This document shows positions 8,331 through 14,968 of a stretch of DNA of 64,000 nucleotides, one piece after another. The notes beneath the pieces were generated by a model. It searched no databases and had not been told where the DNA came from. It saw nothing but the letters and a program-made list of their open reading frames with translations. This stretch comes from Bacteroidales bacterium. Its GTDB lineage: Bacteria; Bacteroidota; Bacteroidia; Bacteroidales; WCHB1-69. A program made the position numbers and the translations under genes. Numbering within the stretch: position 1 is the stretch's first letter; every line of letters starts with the position of its first letter. The DNA lies in NCBI GenBank assembly GCA_017615795.1, contig JAFZZK010000013.1, forward strand, positions 1-64,000, given 5' to 3'.

Positions 8331-9935
8331 CTAATCGGTTGTCTTTCCGCCGGTAATGATGATTTTCCGGTCTTTGGCGGCCTCCACCCCATATACTGTT
8401 TCCCGCGTCTCCTGGGTCTTGAAACTGCGCTGCACCGCTCCCTGCGGGTCAAGATGGATGATCAGCCCGGGCTTTTTGTTATCCAGATAGGGAATGAAGA
8501 AACCGTTTTCGGTTTTGCGCAGATAATTGAGCAGACTGTAGATGCGCCGTGAGGAGAGATGGCGGTTGTAGTCGCTGTTGTGCAAGGGACTGGCATAGCC
8601 GCTGACGGTAATCTCCACCGTCTCGCCGGCAGATAGGGCTTCGTGCAAATATTGCGTCAACTTTTGCAACCGCTCGTAGCCCGTGGCCACAGAGTCGCGT
8701 AGAAATTTTCTCATCGCCTGTTCGGCCGCTTTGCGCTCTGCCTCGGTAAGTCCGCGCCCCGTTTCCCGAACATAGAGGGCGTTGTCGCTCATATATTGCG
8801 CGTAGAGGGCGGGGTAGTCGGTGATGGTGGTGTCGGAAATCGAGCGCGGGTCGGGCTGGTCGTTCTGGAAATAGAGCACGATAGGCAACACTGAGGCGAT
8901 TTTTTCGTGTATGTCGGGGGTGTCCACCGGAGGAGTCGTCACCGTGTCAATGGGCAGCATCCAATGGAACTGGAAGAGGTCATTGCAGCAGGTGTCCGAC
9001 TCTTCCATCCCGTCGTGGGGCCGGTTGGAGGATAAATATCCGTTTTCCCCAGAAGGGTCGAGGGTGAAGTAGAAGTCATTGTATTCCGAATTGAAGGGAA
9101 CGCCCATGTTGGCAACTTGTTCCCAGCGGCCCAATGCGCCTGGGCAATAGAAGATGTCGTAGTCCCCGATGCCGAGGTGTTCGTCGGAACTGAAATAGAG
9201 CACCCCTTTGTGCTTGTCGTAGAAGGGCGTCACCTCATTGCCCTCCGTGTTGATGGTCGGACCTGCGTTGACAGGTGTTTGGTAGTGGCCGTCTTGGACA
9301 ACGGAATACCAGATGTCCAATCCGCCGATGCCTTGCTTGCGGTCGGAAACGAAATAGAGCACGTTCATATTGTCTGTTTCCACCAGAAAGGGCTGCAGGG
9401 TGGAGGATCCCTCCGCATTGACGGTGGCTGGCAGCTTTTTGGGTTTTGACCAAGTGTGCCCTTCTCGAGAACTTTGCCATAGCGCACATCGCAAATCGCC
9501 GTCGTTGTTGCGCGTGCAACGTGAATAGATGAGCAGGTCCTGCTTTTCGTTGAAACAAAAGTTGCTGTTGAAAAATTTCAGGGAATTGATGCTGACCGGC
9601 AGTGCTTCTGAAGGAGTATAGTCGCCATCAGGAAGCAGCCGTGACTGATAAATGTTGCAGTACCAGCTGGTCTCGAAGAGGTGGTCCAAGTCTTCTTCTG
9701 CATTGGCGCGCATGGAAGTGAAGAAGAAGGTGGAGTCGGGGAGCAGCCGTCCGCAGTATTCAGAGAAACGGGTGTTCACTTCGTCGGGCAGTGCCTCCAC
9801 GCGTACGGGCAGCGTGTCGTGCCGGATGAAGTTGCGCTGCTCTTCGCGTTGCCGCTCCGTGAGCTTGACCACCTGCCCTTGTGCCGACAACCCCATGAGA
9901 AGGAGAAGTATGATATGGAATGCGCGCAGTTTCAT
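8331..9935 (-). CDS. PD40-propeller/OmpA-domain envelope protein, PorP partner
   Basis: 534 residues from the ATG at 9935. A signal peptide (MKLRAFHIILLLLMGLSAQGQ) is followed by about 330 residues with PD40/WD40-like blades (YFVSDRKQGIGGLDIWYS, YFSSDEHLGIGDYDIFYC, YLSSNRPHDG). The C-terminal region (about 390-534) resembles an OmpA peptidoglycan-binding domain (VEITVSGYASPLHNSDYNRHL, SSRRIYSLLNYL), without the classical double Asp/Arg block being fully clear. Its start codon overlaps the stop of the PorP-like frame as TAATG, indicating translational coupling. PorP/SprF proteins commonly sit beside PD40/OmpA partners in T9SS organisms, which suggests an outer-membrane/periplasm complex. Confidence 0.87.
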   Translation of the reverse strand: MKLRAFHIILLLLMGLSAQGQVVKLTERQREEQRNFIRHDTLPVRVEALPDEVNTRFSEYCGRLLPDSTFFFTSMRANAEEDLDHLFETSWYCNIYQSRLLPDGDYTPSEALPVSINSLKFFNSNFCFNEKQDLLIYSRCTRNNDGDLRCALWQSSREGHTWSKPKKLPATVNAEGSSTLQPFLVETDNMNVLYFVSDRKQGIGGLDIWYSVVQDGHYQTPVNAGPTINTEGNEVTPFYDKHKGVLYFSSDEHLGIGDYDIFYCPGALGRWEQVANMGVPFNSEYNDFYFTLDPSGENGYLSSNRPHDGMEESDTCCNDLFQFHWMLPIDTVTTPPVDTPDIHEKIASVLPIVLYFQNDQPDPRSISDTTITDYPALYAQYMSDNALYVRETGRGLTEAERKAAEQAMRKFLRDSVATGYERLQKLTQYLHEALSAGETVEITVSGYASPLHNSDYNRHLSSRRIYSLLNYLRKTENGFFIPYLDNKKPGLIIHLDPQGAVQRSFKTQETRETVYGVEAAKDRKIIITGGKTTD

Positions 9936-10993
9936 TACATGAGGTCGTATGGACAGGGTTCCTTGCCGATTCGTTTGATGGTTTTCTTGCGGAAAATATA
10001 GGATAGAGTCAATTCGATGCCACCGCGCGCGTGCGTGGCTGCCACGAAACGCGACACGTTGAGGTCGTAGCCTACACCCAACCGAACATTCTGCCAATTG
10101 AAAAAGACATTGGCAATGATGGCGTCGTTCCACCGGTAAAAGAGACCGCCTCCCACGGAAAAAACCGTGGTGTAACTGTTCTTCCGCTGGAAATACTCGA
10201 CATTCATCCCGAAGGTGTATTCGCTGAATCGACGCTGCCAACTGCCGTACAAGAGAGGCTCCAAGGCGAAATCGTCGGTTATGCCGATTCGTGAGAGAAA
10301 ATGGACGTTGAATTTGATAGGCAGTTGCTCAAAACTTTCGCCGAAAACTTCGCGAGGACAGTTGAGGTGGGCAGCACTGGCTCCTAACTGAAAAGTGTTG
10401 CGCTTGTCAGGTGAAAAACTCCAAAATGCGCCCGCACCAATGTCAAAAAAAAATTGACGTGTGGTGGCAAAAAGTTCACTGCTTGATTGCGAAGGATCGT
10501 AGTGGCCAAACACATACTGCTCGTCCCAACGTGCATCACTGAAATCAAGGTAATTGTGTAATAGCCCTCCGTATAGGCCGACTCCAATTTTGTGCTTGCC
10601 ACTTCTTCCTATGTATTTGATGTAGGAGGCTGTGATCATTGCCTGCAAAGAGGTGTAGTTGAGGGAGCCTGCCTTGTCAGCGAGAAATGAGCCGCCGATG
10701 CCAATCAACTCTTGCCGCCGGTTGTTGCGATATACAGCAGCATCAATGCCCCCACCGAAAGTCTGGAATGGCACCGTGACGGAATACCATTGGGAACGGT
10801 ATGCGGCAGAAGCTCTGAAAATCCCGTCGTAGGCGGCCGTTAGCGCAGGATTCAGTGCAACAGGCTGGTCATAGAATTGGGAAAAGTGGTAGTTTTGTCC
10901 CCGTGCAGAGAAAAAAAAACAGCAAAGCGCCACCAAAAGCAGGATGACATACTTGTATTTCTCGTTCCAGCAACGGCGAAGGTATTTGCGCAA
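9935..10993 (-). CDS. PorP/SprF-family T9SS membrane protein (3' part of the fused frame)
   Basis: From nucleotide 10948 the frame encodes a PorP/SprF-type protein: a strong hydrophobic signal (VILLLVALCCFFFSARGQ), then the family hallmark SQFYDQPVALNPAL, and about 300 residues of alternating strands typical of the 14-strand-like PorP fold, ending SYIFRKKTIKRIG. PorP/SprF proteins anchor T9SS cargo or stator components in the outer membrane. If made separately, the only sensible in-frame start is the TTG at 10993, giving an n-region MRKYLRRCWNEKYKY before the hydrophobic core; this is inference. The next ATG-like codon at the junction is out of frame. The 3' end overlaps the PD40/OmpA gene (TAATG). 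Confidence 0.7.
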   Translation of the reverse strand: MRKYLRRCWNEKYKYVILLLVALCCFFFSARGQNYHFSQFYDQPVALNPALTAAYDGIFRASAAYRSQWYSVTVPFQTFGGGIDAAVYRNNRRQELIGIGGSFLADKAGSLNYTSLQAMITASYIKYIGRSGKHKIGVGLYGGLLHNYLDFSDARWDEQYVFGHYDPSQSSSELFATTRQFFFDIGAGAFWSFSPDKRNTFQLGASAAHLNCPREVFGESFEQLPIKFNVHFLSRIGITDDFALEPLLYGSWQRRFSEYTFGMNVEYFQRKNSYTTVFSVGGGLFYRWNDAIIANVFFNWQNVRLGVGYDLNVSRFVAATHARGGIELTLSYIFRKKTIKRIGKEPCPYDLM

Positions 10994-12214
10994 CTCGTTC
11001 TCGCGCGGATTGTCCTGCGGCTCGTAAATCTTCACCCCGCTCAGTTGCTGCGGCATGAACTCCTGCTCGACGAAATTGTGCTCGAAATCATGGGCGTATT
11101 GATACCCCTTGTGGTAGCCAAGCTCTTTCATAAGCTTGGTGGGCGCATTGCGGATGTGCAGCGGCACGGGCAGGTCGCCGGTCTGCTTGACGATGGCATA
11201 GGCCGTGTCGATGGCCATTATCGCGGCGTTGCTCTTGGGTGAAGAGGCCAAGTAGATGGCGGTCTGCGACAGCGGGATACGCGCTTCCGGCATGCCGATG
11301 ACGTTGACGGCCTGGAAGCAGTTGTTGGCCAGCAACAGGGCGTTCGGGTTGGCATTGCCGATGTCCTCGGAGGCCAATATGACCATCCTCCGGGCAATGA
11401 ACAGGGGGTCCTCCCCGGCAATCAGCATCCGCGCCATCCAATAAACTGCCGCGTTCGGGTCGCTGCCCCGCATCGACTTGATGAACGCGGAGATGATGTC
11501 GTAATGCTGTTCGCCGTTTTTGTCATACAGGGCTAAGTTTTGTTGGATAACTTGCAAAACGCCCTCTCGTGTGACCGTAAGCACACCGTCCACGGGGTGT
11601 ATCATCCATGTTACCAGTTCTATGGCGTTGATGAGCTTGCGGGCGTCTCCGCCGGAGATGCGTAACAATGCCTCCGTGTCTTGCAAAACAATCTTGCATC
11701 CCAGCTGCTTTTCTTGATAGTCCACGGCGGTTTTCAGGATGCGTTCCAAGTTCTCGCGTGAGAGATTCTTGAGAACATAAACTTGGCAACGCGAGAGTAG
11801 GGGAGAGATTACCTCGAAGGAGGGATTCTCCGTGGTCGCGCCGATGAGCGTCACCACACCCTGCTCCACAGCACCAAGCAAAGAGTCTTGCTGCGACTTG
11901 GAAAAACGATGGATCTCATCAATGAAGAGAAGCGCGTGCCGTTCCGACTTCTTTGCTTTCTCAATGACCTCGCGAATGTCCTTTACGCCGCTGTTGATGG
12001 CACTCAGCAGATGAAAGTCCGACCCCGTCAGCTCGGCGATGAGCAGCGCCAGAGTGGTTTTGCCCACACCGGGCGGCCCCCAGAAAATCATCGACTGGAT
12101 GTTCCCGTTCTCAATGGCATTGCGCAACACCGCTCCTTTGCCCATCAGGTGCTCCTGCCCGACGTAGGCATCCAGTGTCCGAGGACGTAATATTTCTGCC
12201 AATGGCTTTTGCAT
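9935..12214 (-). CDS. rarA: RarA/MgsA AAA+ ATPase fused in frame to a PorP/SprF-like protein
   Basis: One uninterrupted frame of 759 codons. Residues 1-422 are a complete RarA (replication-associated recombination protein, clamp-loader-like AAA+ ATPase): start MQKPLAEILRPRTLDAYVGQ, Walker A GPPGVGKTT near 46, Walker B LLFIDEIHRF, sensor GATTENPSFEV, and a C-terminal domain ending RKYLRRCWNEKYKY at the usual family length. With no stop codon, the frame runs directly into VILLLVALCCFFFSARGQ and a PorP/SprF domain. Either one polypeptide is made or the PorP part starts internally. RarA is cytosolic and PorP is an outer-membrane protein, so a true fusion would be topologically odd. The start is supported by the promoter at 12233. 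Confidence 0.85.
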   Translation of the reverse strand: MQKPLAEILRPRTLDAYVGQEHLMGKGAVLRNAIENGNIQSMIFWGPPGVGKTTLALLIAELTGSDFHLLSAINSGVKDIREVIEKAKKSERHALLFIDEIHRFSKSQQDSLLGAVEQGVVTLIGATTENPSFEVISPLLSRCQVYVLKNLSRENLERILKTAVDYQEKQLGCKIVLQDTEALLRISGGDARKLINAIELVTWMIHPVDGVLTVTREGVLQVIQQNLALYDKNGEQHYDIISAFIKSMRGSDPNAAVYWMARMLIAGEDPLFIARRMVILASEDIGNANPNALLLANNCFQAVNVIGMPEARIPLSQTAIYLASSPKSNAAIMAIDTAYAIVKQTGDLPVPLHIRNAPTKLMKELGYHKGYQYAHDFEHNFVEQEFMPQQLSGVKIYEPQDNPRENELRKYLRRCWNEKYKYVILLLVALCCFFFSARGQNYHFSQFYDQPVALNPALTAAYDGIFRASAAYRSQWYSVTVPFQTFGGGIDAAVYRNNRRQELIGIGGSFLADKAGSLNYTSLQAMITASYIKYIGRSGKHKIGVGLYGGLLHNYLDFSDARWDEQYVFGHYDPSQSSSELFATTRQFFFDIGAGAFWSFSPDKRNTFQLGASAAHLNCPREVFGESFEQLPIKFNVHFLSRIGITDDFALEPLLYGSWQRRFSEYTFGMNVEYFQRKNSYTTVFSVGGGLFYRWNDAIIANVFFNWQNVRLGVGYDLNVSRFVAATHARGGIELTLSYIFRKKTIKRIGKEPCPYDLM

Positions 12215-12883: not shown

Positions 12884-14968
12884 ATGACAACTGTAAGAAA
12901 AATTATTGGACTCCTTTTTATTATCCTGATAACCAATGTATTCGTGTGTGCAAATCCTATCAGGAAAAGTGATTTGGCCCAACTGGGAACTGCCGCTTTC
13001 CATCAACGGGCCACGTCCCTGTGCCCGTCTGCTGCCCAATATGCGCTGAAAGACATTCGTTATGTGGGAGATCAAGGCGGTGTTTTGCTTGCAATCTTGA
13101 ATTTCGATGATGGATTTTTGGTCCTTGCCGCCGATGATGCTGTAGAACCCGTATTGGCGTACTCTTTTACTGGTCATTTTTATGAAGAAACAGCGGCTCC
13201 CGGTGCGTTGTTTATGTTGAATGAATATAAAAATAGTATCAAAACGGCGCGAGGCGAGAATCTCCGGGCAACTTCCGAGATCCAAAACCAATGGGATGCT
13301 ATAAAATACAAATCCCCTAATGATACGGTCGTCGTAGTGGTTAGCCCCCTCATCACTGCTAAATGGAATCAGAATAAATACTACAATTGGTATTCCCCCA
13401 TCGACAATGAGTCCCCCGCTGGCTATAATTCCAGAACGCCCAATGGTTGTGTGGCAGTAGCCATGGCTCAAATTATGTATTATTACCGCTATCCAGAGCA
13501 AGGCACTGGTTCGCATACCAACTACACGGACTATGGTAATTTCTACGTAAACTTCGGTCAACAACGATATTGCTATGAGGCTATGGAAGACCAGCTGATT
13601 CATCATAACGATGAGGTCGCTAAATTGATTTTTCATTGTGCCACTTCTGTAAATATGCAATATTCTGCCGAGGGATCTGGAGCCTATTCCCAAGATGTCC
13701 CGGAAGCTGTGCGGACCTATTTTGGCTACTCGTCCAATTGTGAATACCGCTCAAAATACTCCTATAATACCAGTCAATGGCGACAAATGCTCAAGAACGA
13801 GCTTAACATCAAACACCCGATTTACTATTCTGGCTATTCGCAGGAAGGTGGCCATGCATTTGTCTGTGATGGCTACAATAGCGACAATCTTTTCCATTTT
13901 AATTTTGGATGGGGCGGTTCCTCCAATGGCTTTTACACAGTAAGCAGCTATGGATCCAATCCAGTGAATGGCTATGGGAACGGACAGGCTGCAATTTTTA
14001 GCTTCTGTCCTCCAGAGTCATCCTATCCCTATTATTGCTCTCCTCGTGTCGTTAATTGTCATTCTGGCACATTGGAAGACGGAAGCGGTCCTTATGATTA
14101 TGGGAACAAGCAAAATTGCCTCCATCTGCTTACAGATGACAAGGCGACTTCGGTAAACATTCATATACAGTCTTTTAATACGGAAGAGGACCACGATTAC
14201 TTGTATATTCGCGATACCCATGATTCGGTATTGCTTGCTATGTCTGGCGGAATGCCAAGTGTAACGAACTATATTTTTTATACGGATAGTGTATGGGTTC
14301 AATTTGTTACGGATGATTCTATTTCTGGCGCAGGATGGAGATTGACGTATGAATTTGATAATCTGATGCAAGCATGTCATTCCGGTTTGAAAACGGAACC
14401 CACTGGTACGCTGTCGGATGGTAGTGGCCCAGATGATTATAATCCCAATATGGAATGCATGTGGGTCTTCAGAAACTCTGCCGCATCGTACACTTTCTCC
14501 TTCGATACACTCGACATTAGCCCTGAAGATGCTTTGACTTTTTCGGATGTTAGCAATGGCCCGACTGAATTGGTGAAAATTGTCACAGGAAACACCATTC
14601 CGGCGGATTTTACTATTGAATCCCCGAAAATCGTTGTCTCGTTCTTTTCTGATAATTACAAGCAAGGACAGGGATTTAGCTTTACATGGAATGTCAACAG
14701 TCCAGAAGCTGTTGAAGATTTCGAAGAAGACGATATTGCGTTGTATCCAAACCCAAGTCATGATTGGGTTCGCATTGTCTTGCCGGAGCTGCAGGAAGAT
14801 GTGCGGGTTCTGGTATATGATGTGATGGGAAGAGTTGTTTACCAGAATAATTTCTCCGCAAATGAGGTCATAGAATTGAATACATCAAACTTGAACAGTG
14901 GCTTTTACACGGTGATTTGCCAAAGTCCCAATAAAAGATTTGAGAAAAAAATGGTGGTGGCCAGGTAG
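12884..14968 (+). CDS. C10-family (streptopain-like) cysteine protease with T9SS sorting domain
   Basis: 694 residues. Signal peptide about 1-24 (KIIGLLFIILITNVFVCA); propeptide-like region to about 150; peptidase domain about 150-390 with catalytic Cys189 in RTPNGCVAVAMAQIMYYY and His324 in EGGHAFVCDGY, then FHFNFGWGGSSNGFYTV. Next come two CUB-like modules, each beginning CHSG followed by a GTLxDGSGPxDY element (near 388 and 503), and a T9SS type A sorting domain (about 620-694; LYPNPSHDWVRIVL, VYDVMGRVVYQ). C10 peptidases such as SpeB, PrtT and interpain degrade host or dietary proteins and self-process. It is predicted to be secreted and surface attached or released. Confidence 0.94.
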   Translation: MTTVRKIIGLLFIILITNVFVCANPIRKSDLAQLGTAAFHQRATSLCPSAAQYALKDIRYVGDQGGVLLAILNFDDGFLVLAADDAVEPVLAYSFTGHFYEETAAPGALFMLNEYKNSIKTARGENLRATSEIQNQWDAIKYKSPNDTVVVVVSPLITAKWNQNKYYNWYSPIDNESPAGYNSRTPNGCVAVAMAQIMYYYRYPEQGTGSHTNYTDYGNFYVNFGQQRYCYEAMEDQLIHHNDEVAKLIFHCATSVNMQYSAEGSGAYSQDVPEAVRTYFGYSSNCEYRSKYSYNTSQWRQMLKNELNIKHPIYYSGYSQEGGHAFVCDGYNSDNLFHFNFGWGGSSNGFYTVSSYGSNPVNGYGNGQAAIFSFCPPESSYPYYCSPRVVNCHSGTLEDGSGPYDYGNKQNCLHLLTDDKATSVNIHIQSFNTEEDHDYLYIRDTHDSVLLAMSGGMPSVTNYIFYTDSVWVQFVTDDSISGAGWRLTYEFDNLMQACHSGLKTEPTGTLSDGSGPDDYNPNMECMWVFRNSAASYTFSFDTLDISPEDALTFSDVSNGPTELVKIVTGNTIPADFTIESPKIVVSFFSDNYKQGQGFSFTWNVNSPEAVEDFEEDDIALYPNPSHDWVRIVLPELQEDVRVLVYDVMGRVVYQNNFSANEVIELNTSNLNSGFYTVICQSPNKRFEKKMVVAR

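Follow-up and report, generated by a model that had tools for sequence, protein, structure and literature searches.

A conserved open reading frame joins RarA to a PorP/SprF-family protein through a signal-peptide-like segment in Bacteroidales

Introduction

Can a cytosolic DNA-repair ATPase and an exported outer-membrane barrel originate from one bacterial gene? The question is raised by a locus of a Bacteroidales bacterium (assembly GCA_017615795.1), from which we analyzed the first 64,000 nucleotides of contig JAFZZK010000013.1, here referred to as the window. On its minus strand, a frame without internal stop codons extends from an ATG at 12214 to a TAA at 9937–9935 and encodes 759 residues that begin as RarA/MgsA and end as a PorP/SprF-family protein. 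A preliminary description of this DNA had left open whether the cell makes a chimeric protein or starts PorP separately within the frame. No report of a RarA–PorP fusion was found in the literature searched, the silence of which is no proof that none exists.

Architecture of the Fused Reading Frame

The first 422 residues (10949–12214, minus strand) are a full-length RarA, which ends RCWNEKYKY (C-terminal sequence RKYLRRCWNEKYKY). Profile searches returned matches to AAA, RuvB_N and PF12002, the last covering residues 250–415 and model positions 1–166 of 167, and the best PDB match of this part is E. coli RarA (PDB 3pvs, E 2.4e-110, residues 3–410). Like E. coli RarA/MgsA, it possesses a complete AAA+ core with Walker A, Walker B and sensor 1 as well as the MgsA C-terminal domain. 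Unlike the E. coli protein, it does not stop at the usual C-terminus but continues into a signal segment and a barrel; the stop after residue 422 expected of a stand-alone RarA is missing here as well as from 58 other loci.

The frame continues through the hydrophobic segment VILLLVALCCFFFSARG (residues 423–439; 10898–10948, minus strand) into residues 440–759 (9938–10897, minus strand), the predicted mature part of a PorP/SprF-family outer-membrane barrel. Both family profiles exceed their cut-offs: PF11751 with 105 bits versus 22.3 (E 6.8e-30) and TIGR03519 with 148.1 bits versus 90.55, the latter spanning residues 421–741 and model positions 2–292 of 292. The near-complete PF12002 and TIGR03519 matches bear out the earlier view that a full RarA of 422 residues, ending KYKY, reads without a stop into a PorP domain. 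Since the TIGR03519 match begins at the join, PorP keeps its hydrophobic signal core, while the usual head start codon and a basic n-region of its own are missing. A run of nine T lies inside the hydrophobic segment (10911–10919); it had been assigned to the plus strand, which in fact reads A9 here, the T9 being on the coding minus strand. A second homopolymer of this kind (plus-strand A9, coding T9) is located at 10445–10453 at the QFFFD motif of PorP, and a T9 near this site recurs in loci of the genera g10, g5 and g14 (g1–g17 for genera and f1 for the family are working codes of this analysis).

Distribution and Evolution of the Fusion

A comparison of rarA–porP junctions among relatives, as proposed in the preliminary description, shows that 59 of the 104 family genomes, from nine of 17 genera, read through the join without a stop; eight of the 104 gave no match at E 1e-60. 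Within 120 nt across the junction, stop codons occur in frame 0 in none of the 59 loci, compared to 54 and 45 loci for the other two frames, and the openness of the frame thus exceeds chance. Not counted among the 59 fused and 24 unfused loci are the duplicates L029–L033, the named copies L054–L060 and L100, in which a contig end cuts RarA. Contig ends also truncate two of the 59 fused loci in PorP and one in RarA. In the family search, each fused genome gave a single match to the query at E≤1e-60 and hence has no second full RarA. By motif patterns that we take to define AAA proteins, 58 of the 59 fused loci retain the AAA motifs, the exception being L040 with just 95 RarA residues. Both RarA and PorP are under purifying selection; for RarA, dN/dS was computable in seven of ten pairs, none involving L009, and amounted to 0.02–0.06 (dS exceeding 1 in five of these seven).

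All 40 genomes of the window's own genus match the query somewhere at E 0.001, and 25 carry the fused gene over its whole length; in G003, the fused gene is present as far as its contig reaches. G013 (locus L009), counted in the 25 and the 59, has an in-frame TAA at RarA codon 15, with the PorP part remaining open, which may reflect decay of RarA, a base error or synthesis of PorP in another way. Outside the family, no fusion was present among the matches listed for 393 genomes of the order. In 395 genomes of the class, the window's own genome was the only one to pass E≤1e-200, a threshold that a diverged fusion could escape. Other long frames proved to be of a different nature. Those of 832–833 amino acids in G034 and G037, considered as PorP–PorE fusions, owe their length to counting across the RarA stop, and in G448 and G212 RarA has its own stop, with no PorP-like frame nearby on inspection by eye.

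These comparisons also settle the suspicion that the fusion is an artefact of a single assembly. The seven relatives that can be named are all metagenome-assembled genomes of uncultured Bacteroidales, for example UBA1176 and others from yak, buffalo and horse gut, and a homopolymer sits at the join in the window, features that could favor an assembly or sequencing error. Yet the proteins of the seven named records, which add nothing to the genome count, align unbroken with that of the window, and separate genomes of nine genera share the fusion, many without any homopolymer at the join. The relatives already refute an artefact, the chance of which is practically negligible; the fusion is real.

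In a RarA tree of 82 rows, from which G003 was left out (95 residues only), all 58 fused rows fall into one clade (support 100/99) of 74 rows that includes 16 unfused ones. The fused or split state changes at least eight times on this tree, for which one fusion followed by about seven losses would be the simplest reading, some re-fusions being possible. As judged from the tree, the fusion is older than the window's genus. A small deletion at a former TAATG junction had been put forward as the origin; a recent event of this kind in the strain is ruled out by the RarA tree, and in 23 of 24 unfused loci examined the stop is the codon immediately after residue 422. One of the losses is a T11 tract in G009. 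A PorP tree, built by a quick method and without the G009 PorP, repeats close pairs of the RarA tree, with fused G013 beside split G005, G010 and G024, and fused G025 beside split G002, G008, G014 and G035; hence, there is no sign of partner exchange. G006 deviates from this, its PorP grouping with that of G030 and its RarA with that of G036.

Where the genes are separate within the genus, a frame upstream of PorP belongs to PorP alone and has an ATG in nine of 11 cases; this count leaves out G009, a twelfth case without its own start, and G033, in which PorP lies on another contig. Intervening genes separate rarA from porP in some of the split genomes (L043, L044 and L045); their products presumably include a RhuM-type protein and a small helix-turn-helix protein. 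The replacement of one form by the other, fused or split, suggests similar working products from both, which would fit a precursor that is cut, and the re-splitting of the genes in several lineages implies that the fusion is not essential.

The Join as a Putative Internal Signal Peptide

The join is found at the same residue throughout and follows one layout: the basic RarA tail, a stretch rich in hydrophobic residues, a small residue and Q[DN]. In all 59 fused loci, 16, 17 or 19 mostly hydrophobic residues separate Y422 from a Q[DN]xH[YF][ST]Q motif, and the residue at –1 is small (45 Ala, 10 Gly, 3 Ser and 1 Thr). The last 14 RarA residues of the fused loci carry a net charge of +3 to +6. 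The tails of the 24 unfused RarA proteins are similarly charged (+3 to +5), and loss of the stop codon could thus immediately have handed PorP an n-region. By simple rules (charge, hydrophobic length and –1 residue), the segment between RarA and PorP looks like a cleavable signal peptide with a predicted signal peptidase I site before Q440. It comprises an h-region and a c-region, borrows its n-region from the RarA tail and has no conserved start codon, and therefore does not qualify as an N-terminal signal peptide of PorP itself. What every fused locus does contain is the internal hydrophobic segment with small –1 residue expected of a polyprotein that is processed by signal peptidase. For a lasting membrane anchor, this segment is short.

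A precedent for such an arrangement is fbcH of Bradyrhizobium, a single gene for a precursor of cytochrome b and cytochrome c1 with an internal signal peptide that is cut by signal peptidase. The rarA–porP gene would resemble fbcH in giving two proteins parted by an internal signal peptide, provided that cleavage takes place as we infer. In contrast to the fbcH products, which share one membrane complex, RarA as a cytosolic DNA-repair ATPase and the barrel have no known joint function.

From One Reading Frame to Two Proteins

The explanation that we consider probable, with considerable room for doubt, is an old and conserved fusion that encodes a single precursor of the order RarA–signal peptide–PorP, which is cut during export. 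The ribosome would translate RarA first, and its basic C-terminal tail RKYLRRCWNEKYKY would then serve as n-region and the following residues VILLLVALCCFFF as h-region of the internal signal peptide. The Sec machinery may subsequently take over the chain, with RarA staying in the cytosol and PorP being exported, and signal peptidase I could cleave before Q440. While PorP would proceed to the outer membrane, RarA would retain a hydrophobic tail of 16–19 residues on the cytoplasmic side of the inner membrane, or be trimmed. The sequences themselves show the fusion and its conservation, the constant site of the join, its signal-like composition, purifying selection on both parts and the absence of a conserved internal start; that the cell translates both parts as one chain, that the chain is cut, how it is oriented and what becomes of RarA are inferred.

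The chimeric protein envisaged in the preliminary description thus gains support from the open frame in 59 genomes of nine genera, and coupled expression of rarA and porP, also proposed there, would follow from the fusion. A corollary drawn at the time, that a chimera would place a cytosolic ATPase on an exported protein, does not need to apply, as the linking segment resembles a cleavable signal peptide.

The principal competitor is synthesis of PorP from an internal in-frame start, the chimera being a read-through by-product. Such a start had been suggested for the window at a TTG (10993–10991, minus strand; codon –15), and an ATG at codon +2 could play this role in other species. The TTG is indeed in frame, and initiation there would yield a good signal peptide. 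It is, however, not conserved: TTG occupies the position in 24 of the 59 fused loci versus a mean share of 25%, and in TTG share this Leu column ranks fifth of 44, i.e. fairly common and unexceptional. Between codons –30 and +8, an in-frame ATG is found in 20 of the 59 loci at no position common to all, and 36 loci have a TTG or GTG without ATG near the join. Some candidate start hence exists in 56 loci, but ATG, GTG and TTG are all absent from this interval in the remaining three. A hidden start signal could also reduce synonymous change before the join, as is seen in g10, where windows in codons –20 to –1 show values of 0.25 and 0.29 over all codons versus 0.43 in the RarA body; g1 and g14 display no clear constraint of this kind. 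Ranked among RarA windows by synonymous change at two-fold codons, the last 20 RarA codons reach percentiles of 0.36 (g1), 0.20 (g10) and 0.30 (g14), and overall the rarA 3′ end gives no clear indication of extra synonymous constraint. The strongest case for another source of PorP is G013 with its early RarA stop and open PorP part, if this is not decay or error. Conversely, as no stop follows RarA, any ribosome reaching its end must go on to the chimera, slippage excepted. The start-codon, codon-choice and constraint comparisons weaken internal initiation, which we regard as unlikely.

The T Tract at the Join

A further peculiarity of the join is a run of ten T at the same place in the signal of 18 fused genomes, which represent two clades (A and B) of the window's genus. 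Of 13 columns with Phe in all 18 genomes, only the three of the tract are invariantly TTT; in clade A, by comparison, TTC predominates at the Phe pair of the QLFFD motif in this gene. Three-codon windows with synonymous change as low as that of the tract number 2 of 719 in g1, 7 of 719 in clade B and 35 of 719 in clade A (the clade counts again without L009). One additional T would lead to a stop after 12 codons in 17 of the 18 genomes and one T fewer to a stop after 13 codons in all 18. Among 5040 control sites, 0.67% show both stops within three codons. Clade A maintains the –1 stop through different codons, which read TAA or TGA. While T10 may descend from one ancestor, it persisted as neighboring codons changed, and its preservation at synonymous sites together with the near stops suggests slippage, phase switching or termination. 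For the window, with T9 and shifted-frame stops as far as 26 and 31 codons away, this feature does not explain the fusion.

Slippage on T10, either during transcription or as ribosomal frameshifting, would add to the polyprotein model by dividing the output between the in-frame precursor and, after slipping, RarA that stops after a hydrophobic tail of 12–13 residues. The invariant TTT codons, the low synonymous change and the near stops in both shifted frames all point in this direction. However, the 18 genomes are related rather than independent, other fused species have T9 or shorter tracts or none, the window itself lacks the near stops, and other genera have a T9 at a different FFF of this gene as well; we therefore rate this addition as somewhat unlikely. 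A homopolymer within a signal sequence is a classic site of phase switching, and T10 could accordingly toggle exported PorP by replication slippage, with RarA always being made. In line with this, a T11 in G009 (L047) terminates RarA there and shifts PorP out of the reading frame, but G009 is a single genome with 7% contamination, and of the 19 genomes of clades A and B that bear the tract, 18 show a length that keeps the frame, which makes a phase switch quite improbable. Least convincing among the possible roles of the tract is that of a weak transcription terminator formed with a preceding hairpin, so that part of the transcripts would end after RarA. Over the 18 T10 loci, raw folding energies of the 30 nt before the tract range from –1.7 to –10.0 kcal/mol, and in L024 a nine-pair hairpin stops 3 nt short of the tract. 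The majority of these hairpins are weak, though, and vary in position, and a transcript ended there has no RarA stop codon; termination is thus very improbable.

Returning to the cut precursor, its most far-reaching version is a polyprotein shared by nine genera with the RarA tail as n-region, from which signal peptidase I makes both proteins and tethers RarA, of which these genomes yielded a single full copy, to the inner membrane, while in one species group T10 and the near stops set or switch the ratio of RarA to RarA–PorP. This composite is held tentatively and falls somewhat short of an even chance.

Relation to the Type IX Secretion System

The genome encodes three PorP proteins: the fused one, one beside PorKLMN and one beside GldJ and PorU. 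The core PorP of the type IX secretion system (T9SS) is found at position 108074 of contig C42, followed by PorK, PorL, PorM and PorN. Unlike this core protein, the fused PorP is not a neighbor of porK, porL, porM and porN. Its TAA overlaps the ATG of the next gene (TAATG, 9937–9933), a linkage already recognized in the preliminary description. The gene that starts here (8331–9935, minus strand) contains a PD40 repeat and gave a partial match to T9SS_PorE of 144.7 bits, below the curated cut-off of 600. The fused PorP is hence an accessory paralogue adjoining a PorE-like gene, the product of which is its likely partner. In Porphyromonas gingivalis, PorP and PorE belong to one complex (PMC9143113). 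With its full-length family match and PorE-like neighbor, the fused PorP resembles the PorP/SprF type IX carrier proteins (PMC9143113, PMC12635249), and differs from them in lacking both a conserved start codon and a separate n-region. The genome's two unfused PorP paralogues have N-termini that resemble ordinary signal peptides.

The type B sorting domain is matched 17 times in the genome, with 16 of these matches above the cut-off. In the window, a plus-strand gene (12884–14968) encodes a Peptidase C10 with two CUB stretches, a Spi-type inhibitor domain and a type A T9SS sorting tail. At the C-terminus of the fused PorP (9938–9964), a single Cys is present in the sequence EPCPYDLM, and this Cys occurs in all 54 PorP ends inspected among the 59 loci. 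For SprF of Flavobacterium johnsoniae, PMC12635249 describes a bond between a C-terminal Cys and GldK.

Conclusions

A cytosolic replication-repair enzyme and an exported barrel in one open frame over nine genera are an unexpected combination. The conserved T10 allows slippage, phase switching or termination to be put to the test in Bacteroidales, and the splits in close relatives offer natural comparisons for the fused state. If the precursor is made and cut, one bacterial gene would, by means of an internal signal peptide, give rise to two proteins in different compartments and would place RarA at the membrane.
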